Source of the DNA: a virus
IMG/VR virus record: IMGVR_UViG_3300025120_000514
Span: 1-24,758 of that record
Strand: one strand, 5' to 3'
Length of the DNA: 24,758 bases
The translations under genes and the position numbers were made by a program. Shown piece by piece: positions 10,193 through 24,700 of the stretch; position 1 is the first letter of the stretch, and each line of letters opens with the position of its first letter. The notes below the pieces were generated by a model. That model had not been told where the DNA came from, ran no database searches, and was given only the letters and a program-made list of their open reading frames with translations.

Positions 10193-10546
10193 ATGAAGTT
10201 AACAGAATTAAAAAAAGTACTAAAAGAAACTGTTAGAGAAGTAATACAAGAGGAATTAAAAGATATACTTTTAGAGGCTGTAAAAACCCCTAAAATAGTA
10301 ACTCAAACCCCAGTAATGGAATCTTATAATCCTTCATCTCCCCCTCCTTCCCCTACTACTCCTGTAATGTCTTCTCAAGATAAAAGAGATGCTTATAAAA
10401 ATATTTTAGGAGAAACAGCTGCTTCTTTTAATACTAATAACGCCCAAACTTTTAGACCTAACCCAGGAATGGATGTAGCTAATGGAGCATTACCTGATGG
10501 AAATGTAGGTATGGATCAAATAATGAATTTAATGAATAGTAAATAA
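10193..10546 (+). CDS. Small helical, proline-rich virion-type protein
   Basis: A 117-aa protein. The N-terminus is an amphipathic helix (MKLTELKKVLKETVREVIQE then ELKDILLEAV), a pattern frequent at the start of phage structural proteins. A Pro/Ser/Thr linker follows (SSPPPSPTTPV), then a polar tail with NPGMD and GMDQIMNLMN. No enzyme motif is visible. Its stop overlaps the gp25 start by one base (TAATG), placing it firmly in the baseplate operon. A role as a wedge or hub accessory or assembly factor is inference from position. Confidence 0.6.
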   Translation: MKLTELKKVLKETVREVIQEELKDILLEAVKTPKIVTQTPVMESYNPSSPPPSPTTPVMSSQDKRDAYKNILGETAASFNTNNAQTFRPNPGMDVANGALPDGNVGMDQIMNLMNSK

Positions 10547-10953
10547 TGGCAAGGATAATAAATAATGCTTTTCCTACTATTAATAGTGGTAGTGCAGCTT
10601 TAGGATTTAGTTTTCCTTTATCTGGAAGAGCTGTATTTAATCCTACCTATACTACTAAAGAAGTAGTTAAAACAAATTTAATTAATTATTTATTAACTAA
10701 TAAAGGTGAAAGGGTATTTAGACCTAATTTTGGAGCAGATTTAAGAGCATTACTTTGGGAAGGTATCAATGATGGTGCTACATCAGCTTTAGAAGCAAGA
10801 ATAAGAGATAATATAAGTTCAAATTTCCCTTCAGTAGAAGTAAGGAAAATTCAATTTAATAACCAACCAGATCAAAATATTGTAAATTTTATTTTAGATT
10901 ACATAGTTCGTAATATAGGAGCAGAAGATCAAATTAATATAGCATTATCATAA
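10546..10953 (+). CDS. 25: Baseplate wedge protein gp25 (GPW_gp25 family)
   Basis: A 135-aa protein, the usual length for the family (T4 gp25 is 132 aa). Residues 32-66 carry the family core: NPTYTTKEVVKTNLINYLL, followed by NKGERVFRPNFGADL. gp25 (P2 gpW, TssE in type VI secretion) clamps the gp6 dimer to the tail sheath and helps start sheath assembly. The C-terminus (EVRKIQF... VNFILDYIVRN) has the expected final strands. It is joined by one-base stop/start overlaps to the genes on both sides, gp6 being next as in other wedge operons. Confidence 0.92.
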   Translation: MARIINNAFPTINSGSAALGFSFPLSGRAVFNPTYTTKEVVKTNLINYLLTNKGERVFRPNFGADLRALLWEGINDGATSALEARIRDNISSNFPSVEVRKIQFNNQPDQNIVNFILDYIVRNIGAEDQINIALS

Positions 10954-12815
10954 TGGCAAATTTAAATAGAAATATAACATATACAAATAGAGATTTTAAT
11001 ACATTTAGAAATGCTCTTATAAATTATTCTAAAACCTATTTTCCTAATACATTTAATGATTTTACTTCTGATTCAACTGGGATGTTATTCATTGAAATGG
11101 CTTCATATGTGGGTGATGTTTTATCTTTTTATTTAGATAACCAAATTCAAGAAACTTTTATACAATACGCAAGACAAGAAAAAAATCTATTTGATTTAGC
11201 TTATATGTTAGGTTATAAACCTAAAGTAACAACAGCAGCAACAGTAGATATTTCAATATATCAACAATTACCCTCAAAAGATGTAGGGGGAACATTTATA
11301 CCTGATTTTGATTATGCTTTAAAGATTCCATCTAATTTTCAAATAACATCAAATGAAAATAGTTCAGTTAAATTTATTACAGAAGATGTTTGTGATTTTT
11401 CGGTTTCATCATCTCAAGATCCAACAGATATTTCTATTTTTTCACTAAGTGGTACAGATCCAGATAGATTTTTACTGAAAAAAACAAGAAAGGCAATTTC
11501 AGGAACTATAAATGTTACAACAGCAGCTTTTTCTGCCCCTACAAAATATTCAACAGTTGATTTAAATGCTACTAATGTAATTAATGTGTTAGACGTATTT
11601 GATAGTAATGGAAACCAATGGTACGAAGTACTAAATCTAGCACAAGATACTGTTTTTACAACAAAAATAAACGCAAGCTATACAGACCCAAATGCAGTAC
11701 AAGATGACGCTCCTAATTTATTAAATTTAAAACAAGTTCAAAGAAGATTTACAACAAGATTTTTAAATTCAACAACACTGCAATTAGGTTTTGGGGCAGG
11801 AACTGTAAGTGATAATGATGAAAACTTAGTACCTAACCCAGATAATGTAGGAACAGGCTTAGCTTTTTCTAAAGATAAATTAACAGCAGCTTATTCTCCT
11901 TTAAATTTTATGTTTACTGATACTTATGGTATAGCTCCTGCTAATACAACATTAACAATAAGATATTTAACAGGTGGAGGATTATCATCAAATGTAGCAT
12001 CTGGGACTTTAACTAATTTTAATACTACGGGAATATTTTTTTTAAATCCTAATGTTTCTAATGCTTTATCATTAGCCGATCAAATATTTGCATCTGTAGC
12101 TGTTAATAATATTTTAGCAGCAGATGGGGGACAAGGAGCAGATACTATAGAAGAAATAAGACAAAATGCTTTAGGTAATTTTCAAAATCAATTAAGAACT
12201 GTTACACAACAAGATTACTTAATTAGAGCTTTAAGTATGCCTGCTAATATAGGTACTATAGCAAAAGCATATATTCAACCTACTAAAGTAGCAGAATATC
12301 AACTGGGTGAATTACCTACTATTTTAGATATGTATGTATTATCTTATAATTCTCAAAAACAATTAAGAACAGCTTCATCTACTTTAAAACAAAATTTAAA
12401 AACCTATTTATCTGAATATAGGATGATAAATGATTCTATTAAAATAAAAGATGCATATATTATTAATATAACATGTAATTTTGATATAATAGTATTACCT
12501 AACTTTAATAATAATGATGTAATTTTACGCTGTATAGAAGGATTAACAAGTTATTTTAACATTGAAAATTGGAATATAAATCAACCAATTTTGTTAAAAG
12601 ATATAAGTATACTTTTAGATAAAGTTGAAGGAGTTCAAACTGTAACTGATGTACAAATTAAAAATATAGCAGGAGCTAGTAAAGGGTATAGTGATTATTC
12701 ATATGATACAATAGCAGCCACAGATAGGGGAGTAATTTACCCTTCAGTTGATCCTATGGTTTTTGAATTAAAATATCCACGAGTTGATATTATAGGAAGA
12801 GTAGTACCTTTATAA
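10953..12815 (+). CDS. 6: Baseplate wedge protein gp6 (BaseplateJ-like)
   Basis: A 620-aa protein, close to T4 gp6 (660 aa). The N-terminus matches phage gp6: ITYTNRDFNTFRNALINY, then DSTGMLFIEMASYVGDVLSFYLDN (split by the 20-residue rule) and LAYMLGYKPK (about 84-91). Around residues 390-430 the J-like block appears: GADTIEEIRQNA, then LRTVTQQDYLIRAL. The C-terminal part (LSEYRMINDSIKIKDAYI) is also gp6-like. gp6 (P2 gpJ, TssF) forms the dimer at the heart of each wedge that opens the baseplate iris. It overlaps gp25 by one base and is followed after 11 bases by a polar protein. Confidence 0.9.
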   Translation: MANLNRNITYTNRDFNTFRNALINYSKTYFPNTFNDFTSDSTGMLFIEMASYVGDVLSFYLDNQIQETFIQYARQEKNLFDLAYMLGYKPKVTTAATVDISIYQQLPSKDVGGTFIPDFDYALKIPSNFQITSNENSSVKFITEDVCDFSVSSSQDPTDISIFSLSGTDPDRFLLKKTRKAISGTINVTTAAFSAPTKYSTVDLNATNVINVLDVFDSNGNQWYEVLNLAQDTVFTTKINASYTDPNAVQDDAPNLLNLKQVQRRFTTRFLNSTTLQLGFGAGTVSDNDENLVPNPDNVGTGLAFSKDKLTAAYSPLNFMFTDTYGIAPANTTLTIRYLTGGGLSSNVASGTLTNFNTTGIFFLNPNVSNALSLADQIFASVAVNNILAADGGQGADTIEEIRQNALGNFQNQLRTVTQQDYLIRALSMPANIGTIAKAYIQPTKVAEYQLGELPTILDMYVLSYNSQKQLRTASSTLKQNLKTYLSEYRMINDSIKIKDAYIINITCNFDIIVLPNFNNNDVILRCIEGLTSYFNIENWNINQPILLKDISILLDKVEGVQTVTDVQIKNIAGASKGYSDYSYDTIAATDRGVIYPSVDPMVFELKYPRVDIIGRVVPL

Positions 12816-15314: not shown

Positions 15315-18300
15315 ATGGCAATACCAGTTTCTGCATCAATTAATCCAATAAACGCTGAAGTTTTTATTCAAGAAGGGTACGAATTAAGTTTGGACGCTAT
15401 TGTTCCTTCAATTGAATTAACAGGTTCATTTTCTCCAACTACTAGTAAAACACAGTTTTATATATATAATTATGCAAAAACTTTATTGCATGAAAATTTA
15501 GATTATAATGCTAATGGTTCTTATTTAAGCCCTGAATCTACAAATGTTATCTCTAATTCTACATCAAGTTATAATCAATTTGAATTAAACCCAATTGAAG
15601 ATATCTATAATCAAGGATACTCTTCAGGAAATTATTATGCTTTATATAATTTTATAGATTATGAATTAGGATCTGAATTTAATAAAATTGATGATTCCGA
15701 AGACTATAATGGTCATCCTTATTTTATAAAAGATATATCTGGAGATAGAACAGAACTAAGAATTCAAAATAATTTTCTTACTCAAAATCAAATTGAAACA
15801 TATTACCAACAATTTTCAAATAAAATTAATGCTAGAGAAAATGCTGATGAATTTTATATTTCATTTAGTAATAATAGAAATTTTATAGCAGTAAATAGTC
15901 AATTAGAAACTCCTACATCTGGTTCAACTACTCCAACTTCTATATTAATAAAATTATATAAACCTTTACCTTTAGATTTTGAAATTGAACAACAATTACA
16001 AATTATTTCAAAAGTAGGAGAAACACAGGTTTTTTCAATAGATTTTAAACCTAATTTAGAATTTATAGATAATTTATTACAATTAAAAGGACCTAACTAT
16101 AATATAGATATTAAAGATAGAATAAATAATTCTACAAATTTTAAAAGTTTAGATGATTTAATTAATACTAATAGTTCACAATCCTATTATCAGTTTAATT
16201 CATTAAGAAATGAAAAGGGTATTATTTTAAGAAAAAATTGGGGAGATTGGAACCAATTTGTAAAATACTCATCAGCTGAACAAAGGTTAGATAATTTTAA
16301 AGATAAATTAACCTCAATTGAAAGTTTTGAAGATGAATTATTAGGACTTAATACTATAACAGGTGGTACTCCTGCATCGTCTGATTATTCTTCTAGTTAT
16401 AATAGTATAACAAATAATATAAATAAAATAATTAGTAAATTTGATAGTTATGAATATTTTTTGTATTATATAACTGGATCAGAATCATGGCCTAAACGTA
16501 CCACAACTTATCCTTACGCAAATTATTCTGTTACAAGTTCTGAAGGATTAAATTGGTTGGGTAGCACTAATGAAAATAGTGCTTATTATAACTCAGGAAA
16601 AAATCAAATTTATTCTGCCTCAAGATATGATAATAGCAATCAAGATTATTTATATTATTTAATCCCTCCTTTTATTACAGAAAATTCAAGTAATGATCAA
16701 TATATTAAATTTGTAAATATGGTTGGTCAAACATTTGATGAAATGTACTGTTATACAGAAGCAGTAGAACAAGTTAGAAATACAAATTCAGGACTAACAG
16801 GATCTGTTTTACCTTTAGGATTAGCTGATGAAGTAATAGAATCATTAGGTTTTGATACTTATGGCAATTCCTTTAATTCCGTAGGATTTAATGTAAATGG
16901 GATAGGCGTATTTCCTGCAGCAGGATCTGGATTAGAATATATTGATCGTTATGTAGATATAGCTTCTGGATCAGTTATTAATTATTATGATCAACAACAA
17001 TCTACATTAGGGTATGTTATAGCTTTAGCTGATCCATCTTTTCCATATCCTATAGAAAATTCATCTCAGGAAATTTATAAAAGAATATTTCATAATATGG
17101 TTTCTTTAGTAAAAAGAAAAGGAACGGTAACAGGATTAAGACAATTGATTAATATATGGGGTGTTCCCAATACAATGCTTCGTATAAGTGAATTTGGGGG
17201 AAAGAATAAAGATGATGAAAATGATTATGATTTATGGATGAATCGTTATAGTAATGCTTTAACTACCTATAATTATAAAAAAGGAGCATTATTACCTAGT
17301 GGGTCTATAAGAGTTCCTTGGCTACCCTTAACTGGTAATTATTATGAAGATAGTGGTGGAAACCCACCAGATATAGCAGTTCCTGATTGTATTCAATTTA
17401 GATTTAAAAATGAAAGACCTATAAGTCAAGAACCAGGAAATGCTGATTCTTTATTTACTTCTTCTTTATTAGTAACAAATAATTCCAATGCTGTAAGTTA
17501 TAGTAATTTTGGTATTGTATTACAATACTCTGGATCTAATTCTGGATCATTTTCTGGGGCAGCTTTACCAACAGATTATCAGTATGGGACTATGCAATTT
17601 ATAATATCAGGATCTGTAGCTCAAGGAGCTAAGTCACCTGGATATTTTGAAAGTGATCCTATTTCATTACCCTTTTTTGATGGGGGTTGGTGGTCTGTTC
17701 AACTACAAAGAAAAACTCACGTATCAGCATCAAACCAAAATAGTACAAATAATGAGTTTGAATTAAGAGTAGCAAATAATATATATGATGGTTATGATGG
17801 TAATCAAATAGGATTTCAAGGAGTATCAACAATTATAACTGTTGGAGATAATGGAGTTAATGAAGCTTGGAATAAATTTTCTTCTACATTATCCTCACTC
17901 TCATCAACACGAGGAGTTATACTAGGGGGATATATGACATTCCCTAATGGCTCAGGACTTAATAATACTATAATTGGTGGAGCTGGAGGAAGAAACTTAG
18001 GAACAGGATTTTCAGGATCCTTTCAAGAATTTAGATATTATAGAAGAGCTATGTCTGCTTCTTCATTTAATGATTATGTAATGAATCCTGAATCAATACA
18101 AGGACATTCAAATTCAAATACAGGAAAAGGCAGTTCCTATGATTTATTATCCTATAGATTGCCTTTAGGAAATGAATTAGAATATGTAGAGGCATCAGGA
18201 TCTGCTGGTTTTCAAACTACTACTGAAAATACAAAAGCTGTTGGAATTTTAAAATTTGGTGGAACACCTTCACCCATTAGTACTTTTCCACAATTTGGTT

Positions 18301-21300
18301 CTAATGCTTTAGGTTCAATTCATCCTTCTTTAGTTGATAAAAAAGGAACATTATATACTTCATCATTTCTTTATTTAAATGGTTATAAAACTGGAAGTGG
18401 ATACTCTATTGTATATCAAGGGTGGGATGGAACAGACACATCAGCAGTTACAGCATCATATTTGGAACCTAATACCCAAATAAACTACATGGATCAACCT
18501 GCAGCTGGTATCAGGAATAGAATTAAAAATAAAATTCAAGTAATTGATGATAATGAATATGGTACTGTATTATCACCTTTTAGAAGTATACAACAAGAAT
18601 TTGAACAAAGCGGAAGTTATACTGAGGATTTAAATTCATTAGAAGTTGGATTTTCATTTCAAAATGAAATAAATGATGATATAATAGGTACTTTTGGACA
18701 TGGTGTTGTATCAGATGCAATAGCTGATCCTAGATTTATATCTGGAAGCTCAGATAGATATCCTGAATTAACTCGTATTGCAGAAGATTATTTTAAAAAA
18801 TATCAGGGAGTTACTATTACTGATCCTACCTATAATGGGGGATTACCCACTATAATAGAAAAAGAATATGATTATAATAGATTAATTAAATTTTACGAAA
18901 CATCATTATTTAAAGCAATTAAAAACTATGTACCCGCTCGTACTAGTTTAAGCACAGGAATCATCGTAAAACAACATCTATTAGAGCGTAATAAAGCAAA
19001 CACAGCGATTGGTATTAATTTTAATACGGTTGTAGCTAAAACGCCGGAAAACGGTTCAACAAATGGGTTATCAAATGCACCTCAAAGTAATAGTAATAGA
19101 ATACTAACAGGCCAGTCAGGATTTAATTCAGCTATTCAACAAGAAAATTTATTAATTACTTCTAGTATAGAAATGTACTCTTTAACAGGAAGTGCAGGAG
19201 GAAGTGTTAATAAATATAATATAATAACTAATGAAGGACAATTTTATAAGAGTGAGTCAGATAATTTAATATTAACGAATGGCGTATTAACAGCATTATA
19301 CCCAGACCTACCACCTTCTTCACCTGCTCAAAATATAAAAATATTTACAGATATAGATTATGAAAATAAAGTTTATGTTCAATCAGAAGTAGCATTTAGA
19401 TCACAATTAAGATTTAATGGTCTTTTTACAGGAGTCCCATCATCAGCAGTAAATATAAAATTTGAAGCAACCTCAAGTAAAAGAGGAGGTATATTTGATA
19501 CCACATTTTCCAATATAACAGTTGCAGATCCACCAGGGTTAGTGTCAGATAATTATATGGAAATATATCCTGATGAAAGAATATATTGGAATATAATAGC
19601 ATCTGGGGCTACTGTTACTTTAACAGCATATATTGTTAATTTTGGGGAAGCTGATGGATTTACAAAACCTGAACCTTCATCTTCACAACAAGTTAATTGG
19701 TATATAGATGATTTTACAGGTGAGTATAAAGTAGATGATCATCAAACAGAATTTTATGATGGTGAATTTAGTGGTAGTAATTTTGAAGTTATTCCTCCTC
19801 AATATAATCCTTATAGGATATTTGCTGATGGAAATGATATTACACCTGATGAAGCTGCACCCCAACCTTTTGTTGATTTTACAAAAGGTGGAGGGAATTT
19901 TAATGATAGATTTGATAAAACTAAAAATACTGTAAGTTTAGCTTCTGGGTATGCAACTACAGGGACTTTTGCATATGTTACAGGATCTTTTTTCAACTTA
20001 ATAATTGGAGAAGAATATACAGTAAACTTTACAATAACTAATCTCTCACCTTCTCCCCCAAATGCTTTAGACGGCAATTTAATTTCTGTAGCCGTAGCGC
20101 AACATAATACTCCTACTAATTGGAGTGAATTTACTATTAATGGTACTAATGGTACATTTGGGGAACCAAATTTAGCAAATGGTAGTTATTCTTATACTTT
20201 TACAGCTACAGATAATTTTGAATCAGGTGTAGCAGATAGTGGGGGTATTTTTGCTAGTCTTACAACTACAGGAACTACTATTACAATAACAGTTGATTCT
20301 ATAACAGGACCAGGACCACTTGGTTTAGGTCCTAAACATTTTTATAAAAATGATGGGTTTACTATAATACCTTCTCAAAGTTTATTATTTCAAAATTCAC
20401 CTTATAATCCTATAATTAATAATGTAAGTGGCAGTAGAAAAAGTTCATTTTACTTTGATATGGATTTTGATCCTGTAAACCCAGGGTCTAAACTTAAAGA
20501 AGGAATACCATCTGACTACACGTTATTAGTTTCTGCATCTCAATTGGGTTGGGAGGGAGCAACCCCAACAGCAGATAATTTATTAGAATATGCTGAAGTA
20601 CCCGATAGTAATTACACAACTAAAGCAATTATTAATCCAAGATATATAGGAACTACATTACAAAGTGCAGATTATAATTTTTACACAGGTATACCTTCTG
20701 CTAGTCAACTTATAAATCGTTCTCCTCTTTTTGGTGCTACAGGAGTAGCAAATCTTCCATCATTATTAGCTGTAAATAGAGTTAGATATATTGGTGGTGA
20801 AACTGGAAGTTGGGCAGGTGATGTTTCATATGGTAAAAATGCTGTTATTGATAAAAATCCTATTTATTTAGGTCATTTTAAACAATCTTTTTCAGAACCA
20901 TCTATATTTAATACTACTACATTTATATTAGATCAATTAATTCAAATACCTTTTGATGATATAACAGGTGAACAATCTCCTATTATAACATCATCATTAA
21001 TTAATGGAAATAATGAAAATTTAATTCAAGTATCATCAACTTTTGAACCTGGAAGAGAGGCATCAGTTATTTTTACTAACGCTTTTAAACAATTTGCTCA
21101 ATATAATTTAACTCTTAATTATGCTACTATAGGTATAGGATCCTACTCGATTTTCTCTCCTACTTCGAATTATAAAACCTTATTTTCAAATCAAATCAAT
21201 CAACTAAACCTTTCAATCACAAATTCATTTTATCGACCTCCATTTCAAAGATGGTTTTCAGGAGTAAGTCCATCAATAAATATTTTTAGAGGAAGTTATA

Positions 21301-22889
21301 ATGGTCTTCTTGATGATATTGATTCTACTGATTTAGTACCAAATAGAAGTGATTTAGAATTATTATCCCCAAACTCACAATCTGCTATAAATATATTTAC
21401 AACAGGTAGTTCTGCTTACGCTGAAAGTAGAGGATTAGGAATACTTACATTGCTAGGCCCAACTTTTGGATCATTAGGTAGAGTTAATATTTCTAATCCA
21501 GCTTTTGATTCCCTTGGTGGAACCAATAAACGGGGTATTAGTTCAAATATTGTAGGCCCATCTTTTGCATTTTACAATTCAGTAAATATAAATAGTAGAA
21601 GAGGAGATCAATCCTACTCAGCATCAGCAATTGATAATATAACATCATTTAATGCTGTTGAGGGTGTTGTTCTACCCCAATTAATATCTACTACTGGTTA
21701 TACTAATGATAATGGTGGAGATCCTAAACTTGAGATGGGACGTACAGGTTCACATTGGGGTTCATTTGCATACGTTCCCCAAACTAGAGGTCTTGCTATA
21801 AATGGTGATGGTTCTGCTCCATATTTCCAACAGCCTGCTCAAGTTGGTGATTCTACTGTTCCTGTAATAGCCAACCCTGAAAGCAATCTTCAATATTATA
21901 GATATCAAATGTCACAATCAAAATTAGATGAGTATGAAGATTTTGACACACCATTTGAAATTAAGAAAGGTGATGAAATAAGAGTAGCATACAGATTTCC
22001 ATCTCAAGTTGCAACTTCTAGTTTTGCTACTACTGATAATAATCAAAATTATGAAGTAATAAATCAAGATTTTACAGTAATAGGATATGAAATTGCCCCT
22101 CCAGCTGTTGTTACAGAACCATTTTCCATTCCTGGAGGAAGTTCATTTGTTGTAGATATTCCTAATTTAATAACATCATCTGCACCACAGTTTAAAGGTT
22201 TAGCCCTTCAAATTGATGAGTATTATGATAGAATGAAAATTGCTGTACAAAATGAAGTTTGTTTTTATATAATGAATGATAATCCTGGAAATGCTATTCA
22301 AGATGGGTGTGGTAGTGGATCATTTGTAACTAATGTAGCATTTAATAGTTTTGTAGTTAATAATGAGGGAGAAAATAGACCTACTAAAATTAGACTTAGT
22401 GTCGATAAAACTAAGATGAGATTACCAACATCATTAACTAGTAGAGCTTGGGCATTAGGTACTAATATGAGTGGCGTAGATGATATTTATCCAATTAAAG
22501 GATTAATATCTCCAAGGTTGTATGGTGGGGGTGGACTTAATTTTCAAAGAAAATTATATGCTACTGATGGTGAAATATTTGCTTTAGCACTTGATGCTGG
22601 GTTTGTATGGAATAGATTATTAGTATTTCCTGCACCAAAGTCTTTACCAAAACCTATTCCATCTGGAAGTATAAATGCTGTTACAATAAGAAGAAGAACA
22701 GATGATGACACAAGAGTTATGTTATCTATACCAGAGTTATCAGGATCAAAAGGTATTCAAACTCCCTCTGGTGAAGGGTATGTAATACCAAATGATTTAA
22801 CACCAACACAACAAGGAAATATTCAAAAAATAATTAATAAATTACAATCAGAAAATGTATTTCAACAAAATACATCTAATAATGATTAG
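15315..22889 (+). CDS. Giant baseplate wedge protein: gp7/gpI-like core, LamG-like domain and long C-terminal extension
   Basis: A 2524-aa protein. Residues 1-460 are a beta-rich N-terminal region (SGDRTELRI at about 142-150). Residues about 469-635 resemble phage tail protein I and T4 gp7: GQTFDEMYCYTEAVEQVRN, LPLGLADEVIESLGFD, and IYKRIFHNMVSLVKRKGTV with LRQLINIWGVPNTMLRISEFGG. Residues about 693-925 look like a concanavalin/LamG sandwich ending GSFQEFRYYRRAMS. VPARTSLSTGIIV (about 1206-1218) usually closes the core. Some 1300 more residues follow, including a CBM-like jelly-roll near 1520-1670 (GEEYTVNFTITN then GSYSYTFTATD). T4 gp7 is 1032 aa and P2 gpI under 200. Following gp25 and gp6, it completes the wedge core and may also expose sugar-binding modules. 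Confidence 0.7.
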   Translation: MAIPVSASINPINAEVFIQEGYELSLDAIVPSIELTGSFSPTTSKTQFYIYNYAKTLLHENLDYNANGSYLSPESTNVISNSTSSYNQFELNPIEDIYNQGYSSGNYYALYNFIDYELGSEFNKIDDSEDYNGHPYFIKDISGDRTELRIQNNFLTQNQIETYYQQFSNKINARENADEFYISFSNNRNFIAVNSQLETPTSGSTTPTSILIKLYKPLPLDFEIEQQLQIISKVGETQVFSIDFKPNLEFIDNLLQLKGPNYNIDIKDRINNSTNFKSLDDLINTNSSQSYYQFNSLRNEKGIILRKNWGDWNQFVKYSSAEQRLDNFKDKLTSIESFEDELLGLNTITGGTPASSDYSSSYNSITNNINKIISKFDSYEYFLYYITGSESWPKRTTTYPYANYSVTSSEGLNWLGSTNENSAYYNSGKNQIYSASRYDNSNQDYLYYLIPPFITENSSNDQYIKFVNMVGQTFDEMYCYTEAVEQVRNTNSGLTGSVLPLGLADEVIESLGFDTYGNSFNSVGFNVNGIGVFPAAGSGLEYIDRYVDIASGSVINYYDQQQSTLGYVIALADPSFPYPIENSSQEIYKRIFHNMVSLVKRKGTVTGLRQLINIWGVPNTMLRISEFGGKNKDDENDYDLWMNRYSNALTTYNYKKGALLPSGSIRVPWLPLTGNYYEDSGGNPPDIAVPDCIQFRFKNERPISQEPGNADSLFTSSLLVTNNSNAVSYSNFGIVLQYSGSNSGSFSGAALPTDYQYGTMQFIISGSVAQGAKSPGYFESDPISLPFFDGGWWSVQLQRKTHVSASNQNSTNNEFELRVANNIYDGYDGNQIGFQGVSTIITVGDNGVNEAWNKFSSTLSSLSSTRGVILGGYMTFPNGSGLNNTIIGGAGGRNLGTGFSGSFQEFRYYRRAMSASSFNDYVMNPESIQGHSNSNTGKGSSYDLLSYRLPLGNELEYVEASGSAGFQTTTENTKAVGILKFGGTPSPISTFPQFGSNALGSIHPSLVDKKGTLYTSSFLYLNGYKTGSGYSIVYQGWDGTDTSAVTASYLEPNTQINYMDQPAAGIRNRIKNKIQVIDDNEYGTVLSPFRSIQQEFEQSGSYTEDLNSLEVGFSFQNEINDDIIGTFGHGVVSDAIADPRFISGSSDRYPELTRIAEDYFKKYQGVTITDPTYNGGLPTIIEKEYDYNRLIKFYETSLFKAIKNYVPARTSLSTGIIVKQHLLERNKANTAIGINFNTVVAKTPENGSTNGLSNAPQSNSNRILTGQSGFNSAIQQENLLITSSIEMYSLTGSAGGSVNKYNIITNEGQFYKSESDNLILTNGVLTALYPDLPPSSPAQNIKIFTDIDYENKVYVQSEVAFRSQLRFNGLFTGVPSSAVNIKFEATSSKRGGIFDTTFSNITVADPPGLVSDNYMEIYPDERIYWNIIASGATVTLTAYIVNFGEADGFTKPEPSSSQQVNWYIDDFTGEYKVDDHQTEFYDGEFSGSNFEVIPPQYNPYRIFADGNDITPDEAAPQPFVDFTKGGGNFNDRFDKTKNTVSLASGYATTGTFAYVTGSFFNLIIGEEYTVNFTITNLSPSPPNALDGNLISVAVAQHNTPTNWSEFTINGTNGTFGEPNLANGSYSYTFTATDNFESGVADSGGIFASLTTTGTTITITVDSITGPGPLGLGPKHFYKNDGFTIIPSQSLLFQNSPYNPIINNVSGSRKSSFYFDMDFDPVNPGSKLKEGIPSDYTLLVSASQLGWEGATPTADNLLEYAEVPDSNYTTKAIINPRYIGTTLQSADYNFYTGIPSASQLINRSPLFGATGVANLPSLLAVNRVRYIGGETGSWAGDVSYGKNAVIDKNPIYLGHFKQSFSEPSIFNTTTFILDQLIQIPFDDITGEQSPIITSSLINGNNENLIQVSSTFEPGREASVIFTNAFKQFAQYNLTLNYATIGIGSYSIFSPTSNYKTLFSNQINQLNLSITNSFYRPPFQRWFSGVSPSINIFRGSYNGLLDDIDSTDLVPNRSDLELLSPNSQSAINIFTTGSSAYAESRGLGILTLLGPTFGSLGRVNISNPAFDSLGGTNKRGISSNIVGPSFAFYNSVNINSRRGDQSYSASAIDNITSFNAVEGVVLPQLISTTGYTNDNGGDPKLEMGRTGSHWGSFAYVPQTRGLAINGDGSAPYFQQPAQVGDSTVPVIANPESNLQYYRYQMSQSKLDEYEDFDTPFEIKKGDEIRVAYRFPSQVATSSFATTDNNQNYEVINQDFTVIGYEIAPPAVVTEPFSIPGGSSFVVDIPNLITSSAPQFKGLALQIDEYYDRMKIAVQNEVCFYIMNDNPGNAIQDGCGSGSFVTNVAFNSFVVNNEGENRPTKIRLSVDKTKMRLPTSLTSRAWALGTNMSGVDDIYPIKGLISPRLYGGGGLNFQRKLYATDGEIFALALDAGFVWNRLLVFPAPKSLPKPIPSGSINAVTIRRRTDDDTRVMLSIPELSGSKGIQTPSGEGYVIPNDLTPTQQGNIQKIINKLQSENVFQQNTSNND

Positions 22890-23644: not shown

Positions 23645-24700
23645 ATGGCTAACGGAGCTTTTACCCAATTTCAACCAAGTGATATAATTAATAGTATAGA
23701 TTCTGTAACAGGAACTGTGTGGAGTGGTAATGCTCCTCGATTAACAGAAGTTTATACATCATCAGTTCAAAATGCATCTAATTCAGGACAATATTATGTT
23801 CATGTTTACCAAACATCATCTACAGAAACTACAGCAGCAGTTCAATTTGATATAGCTTATGCTGATGAAGTAGGTAGTGGTAGTTTAGATTATAATGCTT
23901 TAGTTACAGGTAAATCACCTTCATCAACAATATTTGGACAATATCAAAATATTGCTTTGGGAGATGATACAGAAGATTTTGTATTTGGTAATGCTTCATC
24001 ATCATATTTTTATGCCTTATCAGTTGAAAGAGCTAGATATAAAGAATCGTTAGCTTTAGGTACAATGGCATTAGTATTAAATGATGGTACTGCAGCTGGT
24101 AATAATAATTTACATTTAACTGATAATAGTAATATAAGTACAGGTAATGTTTTCGGAAATGCTGGAAGGGTTTATCAAGTAGTATCAGGATCTGAAGGAA
24201 ATGTATATACTGGTACTAATGCTAACGGTTGGACTGCAACTAAAGGATCATATGGTTTATATCTACCTGATGTAGGCTTAATTTTATTAAATGGTGAAGC
24301 ATTAGATTTAAGTATAGGTAATGGTGGGATTGGATTAACTACGGGAAGAAATACTAATACAAATGATGCTAATATGGGTAAATTATTTAGTAGATTTTCA
24401 TCAAGTATATTTGTTAATAGTGATCCTTTTAGATTAAATTCTCAAGAAACTCTAGCATCTGATTTTTATTTTGTAAGAGCTCAAAATGCAGACTTTAATT
24501 ACTCTTCAAACCCATCATTTGTTTCAGGTTCAACAGGTCAATTATTATGGGCTACAATGCAAAATAACCCACAAACATTTATAACAACAGTTGGTTTATA
24601 CAATGATTCAAATGAATTATGTGCTGTAGCAAAACTAAGTAGACCATTAACTAAAGACTTTACAAAAGAATTACTTGTTAGGATTAAATTAGATTATTAA
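23645..24700 (+). CDS. Conserved phage structural protein, function unknown
   Basis: A 351-aa protein, strand-rich with many S, T, N and G residues. The C-terminus is the most recognisable part: FYFVRAQNADFNYSSNPSF, then TFITTVGLYNDSNELCAVA and KLSRPLTKDFTKELLVRIKLDY (the last split after 20). This ending recurs in virion proteins of T4-like phages of marine hosts and probably mediates packing in a baseplate or tail assembly. Residues 100-135 (YQNIALGDDTEDFVFG then SSYFYALSVERARYKE) also look conserved. It has no enzyme motif. It follows the previous gene by 26 bases and is 5 bases from the next. Confidence 0.65.
   Translation: MANGAFTQFQPSDIINSIDSVTGTVWSGNAPRLTEVYTSSVQNASNSGQYYVHVYQTSSTETTAAVQFDIAYADEVGSGSLDYNALVTGKSPSSTIFGQYQNIALGDDTEDFVFGNASSSYFYALSVERARYKESLALGTMALVLNDGTAAGNNNLHLTDNSNISTGNVFGNAGRVYQVVSGSEGNVYTGTNANGWTATKGSYGLYLPDVGLILLNGEALDLSIGNGGIGLTTGRNTNTNDANMGKLFSRFSSSIFVNSDPFRLNSQETLASDFYFVRAQNADFNYSSNPSFVSGSTGQLLWATMQNNPQTFITTVGLYNDSNELCAVAKLSRPLTKDFTKELLVRIKLDY

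Follow-up and report, generated by a model that had tools for sequence, protein, structure and literature searches.

The window, a viral contig of 24.8 kb (24,758 nucleotides), contains a frame of 2524 aa whose product is probably a gp7/gpI-type wedge subunit of a contractile tail, covalently continuous with two further baseplate units. The genes around it form a contractile-tail baseplate operon (Table 1). Three features of this giant protein are new: the fusion of three units in one chain, a LamG insert within the wedge core, and recurrent switching between one gene and several genes. That a wedge protein can carry carbohydrate-binding-type modules was known before from Herelleviridae, and giant proteins at this gene position are already known from marine cyanophages (S-PM2). 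The family studied here comprises hundreds of contigs, so far carried as 'hypothetical protein', and no published description of it was found in open-access text. With our analysis, this unannotated family can be read as a baseplate cassette in which three units and two joints are mapped.

The frame of 2524 aa is genuine and conserved. More than 12 independent IMG/VR contigs contain orthologues of 2398-2849 aa that are uninterrupted and in frame, so it is neither a chance reading nor an assembly error. It starts with ATG and has no internal stop, and the earlier note was right to read it as a single chain that follows gp25 and gp6. Three small genes lie between gp6 and the giant gene in the window, and the order gp25-gp6-x-x-giant-MGYL is common to the window and its relatives. 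The gp6 gene of the window is 43-45% identical to its orthologues in the phages immuto and Mel-JY01. The MGYL gene adjoins in all relatives checked, immuto and Mel-JY01 included. The genes 3' of it (window 23645-24700; relative L013 19500-20666) share similar end motifs, AVAKLSRPL..DFTKELLVRIKLDY and AIGKLSVP.., and the two post-MGYL genes are possibly paralogous virion proteins.

Table 1. Features of the giant gene and its neighbourhood in the window. Identities are mean pairwise values among eight close relatives.
Feature	Position	Strand	Evidence and remarks
gp25-type wedge protein	10546..10953	+	PF04965 E 2.6e-10; PHROG baseplate wedge 4e-15
gp6 / P2 gpJ-type wedge protein	10953..12815	+	PHROG baseplate wedge 1e-17
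Structural gene, 483 aa	13419..14870	+	syntenic with immuto gp159
Small coiled-coil-like protein, 144 aa	14870..15304	+	syntenic with immuto gp160
Giant protein (probable baseplate protein), three units in one chain, 2524 aa	15315..22889	+	ATG start, without internal stop; full-length orthologues
Unit 1, N-terminal alpha/beta domain, residues 1-430	15315..16604	+	alignment; 69% identity
Unit 1, putative gp7/gpI-type core, residues 436-640	16620..17234	+	TIGR02242 in 15/49 members; 85% identity
Unit 1, predicted LamG / concanavalin-A-like insert, residues 643-1058	17241..18488	+	VIA Z 14.0; 53% identity
Unit 1, closing segment, residues 1071-1225	18525..18989	+	'VPARTSL..GIIVKQHLLERN' at residue 1206; 89% identity
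Variable beta module 1, residues 1341-1444	19335..19646	+	all-beta in model; 27% identity
Conserved hinge 'Q.EFYDGE.SGSN...QYNPYRI', residues 1470-1505	19722..19829	+	unit 1 end, junction A; 70% identity
Likely CBM4/CBM16/CBM22-like jelly roll, residues 1513-1666	19851..20312	+	Foldseek, VIA; hypervariable, 23% identity
Unit 2 conserved motif 'QNSPYNP..NN...VPDSNYT...SADYNF', residues 1680-1790	20352..20684	+	ends at junction B; 69% identity
Unit 3, residues 1791-2524	20685..22886	+	two variable beta modules, GDEIRV motif, C-terminal helix 'GYVIPNDLT..Q...QKIINKL'
'MGYL..VTVDAILTKKGRELL' protein, 217 aa	22965..23618	+	constant downstream marker, all configurations

Conserved and variable parts alternate along the chain. 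Among eight close relatives, the scaffold parts have mean pairwise identities of ~55-90%, against 23-29% for the variable modules, which are gained or lost as a whole. The closing segment is the most constant part of the protein, and the motif that the earlier note had placed near residue 1207 lies within it. The core is marked by 'LIPPFI..F..M.GQ..D' from residue 449 and by a KGT motif at residue 602, and the C-tail of unit 3 is 55% identical. One relative (L010) lacks variable beta module 1 altogether, and L010 as well as L009 carry ~270 extra residues at the position of the CBM-like module. The LamG domain is present neither in immuto nor in one clade of short relatives, and is therefore an insert. 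A constant scaffold with fast-diverging modules that come and go fits the pattern expected of surface-binding parts; high divergence is compatible with adhesion and no proof of it.

Structure prediction gives some of these modules a putative identity. The models of the N- and C-terminal parts have mean pLDDT values of 61 and 57, respectively. Missed by the sequence models, the LamG domain is firmly predicted as a LamG / concanavalin-A fold: its model aligns to PAPP-A LamG with a VIA Z of 14.0 (rmsd 3.6, 216 residues), and Z values of 12-14 over 170-216 residues are obtained with PAPP-A LamG, laminin LG and pentraxin. Resemblance extends to 4dqa and a Bacteroides carbohydrate-binding protein. 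The sandwich foreseen earlier is thus upheld as a fold, with its extent moved from residues 690-930 to 643-1058. A CBM-like module had also been proposed in the C-terminal half, and a jelly roll is predicted there, for which Foldseek returns CBM22, CBM4 and CBM16 (E 7.6e-6, probability 1.00). VIA Z values reach only 6-7.6 and are similar for MAM and Eph domains, so that a CBM4/16/22-like fold is likely and the sugar-binding-type label is putative. The core is poorly modelled, with pLDDT of about 30-70. The Foldseek list for the N-terminal model contains no wedge chain, which counts neither for nor against the assignment, and none of the solved wedge structures was matched by sequence or fold. 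A profile search of solved structures gave no match, scans of the whole giant protein with Pfam, NCBIfam and PHROG gave no usable match, and the matches in BFVD are proteins without names.

Gene position says that the core is of the gp7/gpI type, and the residues themselves say that it probably is. TIGR02242 ('phage tail protein domain') matches 15 of 49 diverse cores, with a best E of 0.0058, and no other NCBIfam model matches the core recurrently. When whole genomes were scanned, TIGR02242 gave a single match per genome in three giant-bearing genomes of 164 kb (G001-G003), in immuto and in S-PM2. Each time the match was the KGT segment of the gene at this position (2723, 1265 and 3048 aa), always below the curated cut-off; because G001-G003 are near-identical, these amount to three independent cases. 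T4 and four further records gave no match to this model. Compared profile against profile, the core reaches no significance with T4 gp7, P2 gpI or S-PM2p084 (P 0.13, 0.14 and 0.014), although hhalign places the KGT segment of the core in register with all three; the P2 gpI profile is poor because its relatives are near-identical. The gp7/gpI-like block that the earlier note had set at about residues 469-635 is thus backed by position and by a KGT signature that is itself weak, and its bounds are now 436-640. Neither PF09684, nor phrog_964 (gp7), nor a second TIGR02242 match was found in the three near-identical 164-kb records, the window record being a fragment. A clear gp7 encoded elsewhere had been named as an observation that would tell against this assignment; in relatives of complete size no T4-type gp7, gp8 or gp10 was found, and gp25 was found once in each.

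The giant protein might instead be a long tail-fibre or spike protein that is merely encoded beside the wedge genes, with a chance KGT-like segment. LamG and CBM-type domains, like a high beta content, are common features of fibres and spikes, and the scores of the gpI family are weak. We consider this improbable, since the most constant parts are the KGT core and the closing segment (85-89%) and not the termini, and since TIGR02242, across three unrelated groups of phages, matches only the gene at this position. Moreover, a relative has a separate collagen-like tail fibre elsewhere in its genome. This is G001, in which a 3007-aa protein with GTSGTSG repeats matches tail-fibre PHROGs (G001:C1:134108-143128; L379 6609-15629); one codon register of three in its gene is 77% Gly. 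An 846-aa fibre-like protein is encoded beside it. In view of these genes, a replacement of all fibres by the giant is not supported, and neither is the proposal of the earlier note that the wedge core may take over separate T4-type gp8-gp12 functions. Because G001 carries fibre genes elsewhere, proteins other than the giant are also candidates for contact with the host.

Among known systems, S-PM2p084 of cyanophage S-PM2 is also giant (3048 aa), is encoded immediately behind gp25 and gp6, with gp8 following, and has a KGT-type segment with a TIGR02242 match. It belongs to phrog_4406, which is related to phrog_2885, under the labels virion structural protein and 'baseplate wedge subunit'. However, its KGT lies at residue 197, at the extreme N-terminus, instead of residue 602, its sequence has no detectable similarity to our protein in the N-terminal domain, the closing segment or the C-terminal half, and S-PM2 has a separate gp8, unlike the giant-bearing genomes. 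Membership in this cyanophage family (phrog_4406/2885) was not found, either by PHROG search or, at significance, by hhalign with S-PM2p084. T4 gp7 (phrog_964) also follows gp6, has a KG-type motif and the expected role of a wedge subunit, yet it comprises 1032 aa, lacks LamG and CBM domains and has no significant similarity to the giant; neither phrog_964 nor phrog_977 (gp8) was found in giant-bearing genomes. In P2 gpI, TIGR02242 and Tail_P2_I, 'KRAVIRDAYFIHCHKGTIGAIRRVVEPLG' aligns with 'KRIFHNMVSLVKRKGTVTGLRQLINIWG' of the core, but P2 gpI has only 176 aa, its score is not significant and PF09684 finds nothing. The earlier statement that known counterparts are far smaller holds for T4 gp7 and fails for the S-PM2 protein.

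The modules of the giant recall those of Herelleviridae. Baseplate wedge 3 of this family (Vp4 Gp119, Deep-Blue Gp177) occurs in two size classes, the Deep-Blue homologue being short, and Vp4 Gp119 contains CBM16/xylanase-CBM folds and binds host cells (PMC11406892). Compared by description, it differs from the giant in its size (831 aa), with neither a LamG insert in the core nor a three-unit fusion reported. A purely structural role of the modules, as spacers or virion decoration without receptor binding, appears unlikely to us. LamG and jelly-roll folds do also serve as plain interaction domains, and other fibres exist in a relative. On the other hand, the modules are the fastest-diverging and most often gained or lost parts of an otherwise constant protein, and Vp4 Gp119 is a wedge protein with CBM folds for which host binding is experimental.

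In relatives, the giant is matched by as many as three adjacent genes, and the configurations 1-2-3, 1|2-3, 1-2|3 and 1|2|3 all occur. The description in the earlier note, a wedge core with extra domains, was in this respect incomplete: the C-terminal half consists of two units for which relatives have separate, adjacent genes. In immuto, a cultured Flavobacterium phage, gp161 (1265 aa) is the core, and gp162 (403 aa) matches the profile of the C-terminal half (E 1.7e-10, small database) and is followed by the MGYL gene, as in the window. These two are direct homologues of unit 1 and the C-terminal half in the same synteny, differing by their separation into two genes, by the absence of the LamG insert and by an annotated tail fibre and spikes just downstream. 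In L135, which sits beside giants in the tree, a 1330-aa core gene is followed after 14 bases by a 755-aa homologue of the C-terminal half (profile E 1e-68) within the same gene order, and L025 has three genes of 1187, 333 and 467 aa. The MGYL marker lies downstream of 124 core genes; it follows directly in 102 cases, after one intervening gene in 16 and after two in 6. The joints recur in many lineages: the end of unit 1 falls shortly behind the hinge region (junction A), unit 2 ends at 'DSNYT..RY.GS..SS.DFN', corresponding to window residues 1762-1789 (junction B), and unit 3 ends with the same helical tail across forms. Sequencing error is an unlikely source of the splits because the separate genes have proper starts, the same joints recur and four immuto records agree. 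Immuto gp161 is annotated as hypothetical and gp162 (L001 18746-19957) was deposited as 'putative nucleic acid binding protein'; given its homology to the C-terminal half of the giant, the latter annotation looks wrong.

On an unrooted tree of 89 cores, the one-chain or split state requires at least 7 changes and the four configuration states require 11. These counts exclude L003, L002 and L076. In L062, a 254-aa gene directly behind the fused giant-family gene (after 12595) looks like a GIY-YIG endonuclease of the homing endonuclease type, and L062 was not coded as split. Fusion and fission are indistinguishable because the tree is unrooted. The long form may be ancestral, with the split forms arising by fission where stop and start codons newly appeared at joints between domains; we rate this as a serious contender, slightly short of even. 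In its favour, 69 of 86 rows have the one-chain form, which makes it the commonest, and the split forms occur at scattered places in the tree, with L135 beside giants. Against this, the relatives that are furthest removed (immuto, Mel-JY01, LR756508) are either split or without the C-terminal half, and the separate units have their own starts.

An equivalence of unit 2 with T4 gp8, suggested by sizes of 333 and 334 aa, was rejected, as no similarity to T4 gp8 or phrog_977 was found. T4 gp8 is a dimer present in twelve copies. T4 gp7 is a monomer present in six copies (PMC3004832). A fusion implies equal copy numbers of its units, so that by this analogy, too, unit 2 probably does not correspond to gp8.

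Returning to the wedge reading, we propose that unit 1 (1-~1505) would dock with its core on the gp6 bundle, with LamG looped out of the core at a point behind the KGT helices and ahead of the closing segment. The CBM-type jelly roll and the conserved NSPYNP/SNYT segment would be combined in unit 2 (~1505-1790), and unit 3 (1791-2524) would add two more variable beta modules and the helical C-tail. The constant parts would assemble the wedge, and the LamG, CBM-like and variable modules would protrude from the chain at three places and contact glycans on the host surface. Fusion would fix the three units at 1:1:1, presumably with six copies per baseplate as for T4 gp7. A broader picture, possible though somewhat doubtful as a whole, is that of a widespread contractile-phage lineage which holds the wedge, peripheral and adhesive baseplate layers in one covalent chain. 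Its cassette would have been fused and split repeatedly at two fixed joints, with glycan-binding modules swapped and host recognition built into the wedge. Variable modules on a constant wedge scaffold suggest a possible seat of host specificity in these aquatic phages besides the classical fibres. In addition, the split forms indicate between which proteins contacts are to be expected in the wedge, and the cultured phage immuto makes these contacts testable.

Relatives of the giant infect Flavobacterium and Microcystis. Two core homologues (L381, L382) lie on contigs of a Winogradskyella MAG and a bacterium MAG, which are probably phage contigs binned with their hosts, or prophages. Directly downstream of the giant gene, just two small structural-looking genes precede those of DNA metabolism in L013 and G001, in suggestive contrast to immuto with its annotated fibre and spikes there. 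Further along, L013 (23724-26939) encodes a 1071-aa protein with a plastocyanin/azurin copper-binding domain (PF00127, E 3e-13), which is odd for a phage, and the N-terminus of this protein resembles a cytidylyltransferase-like protein of G001.
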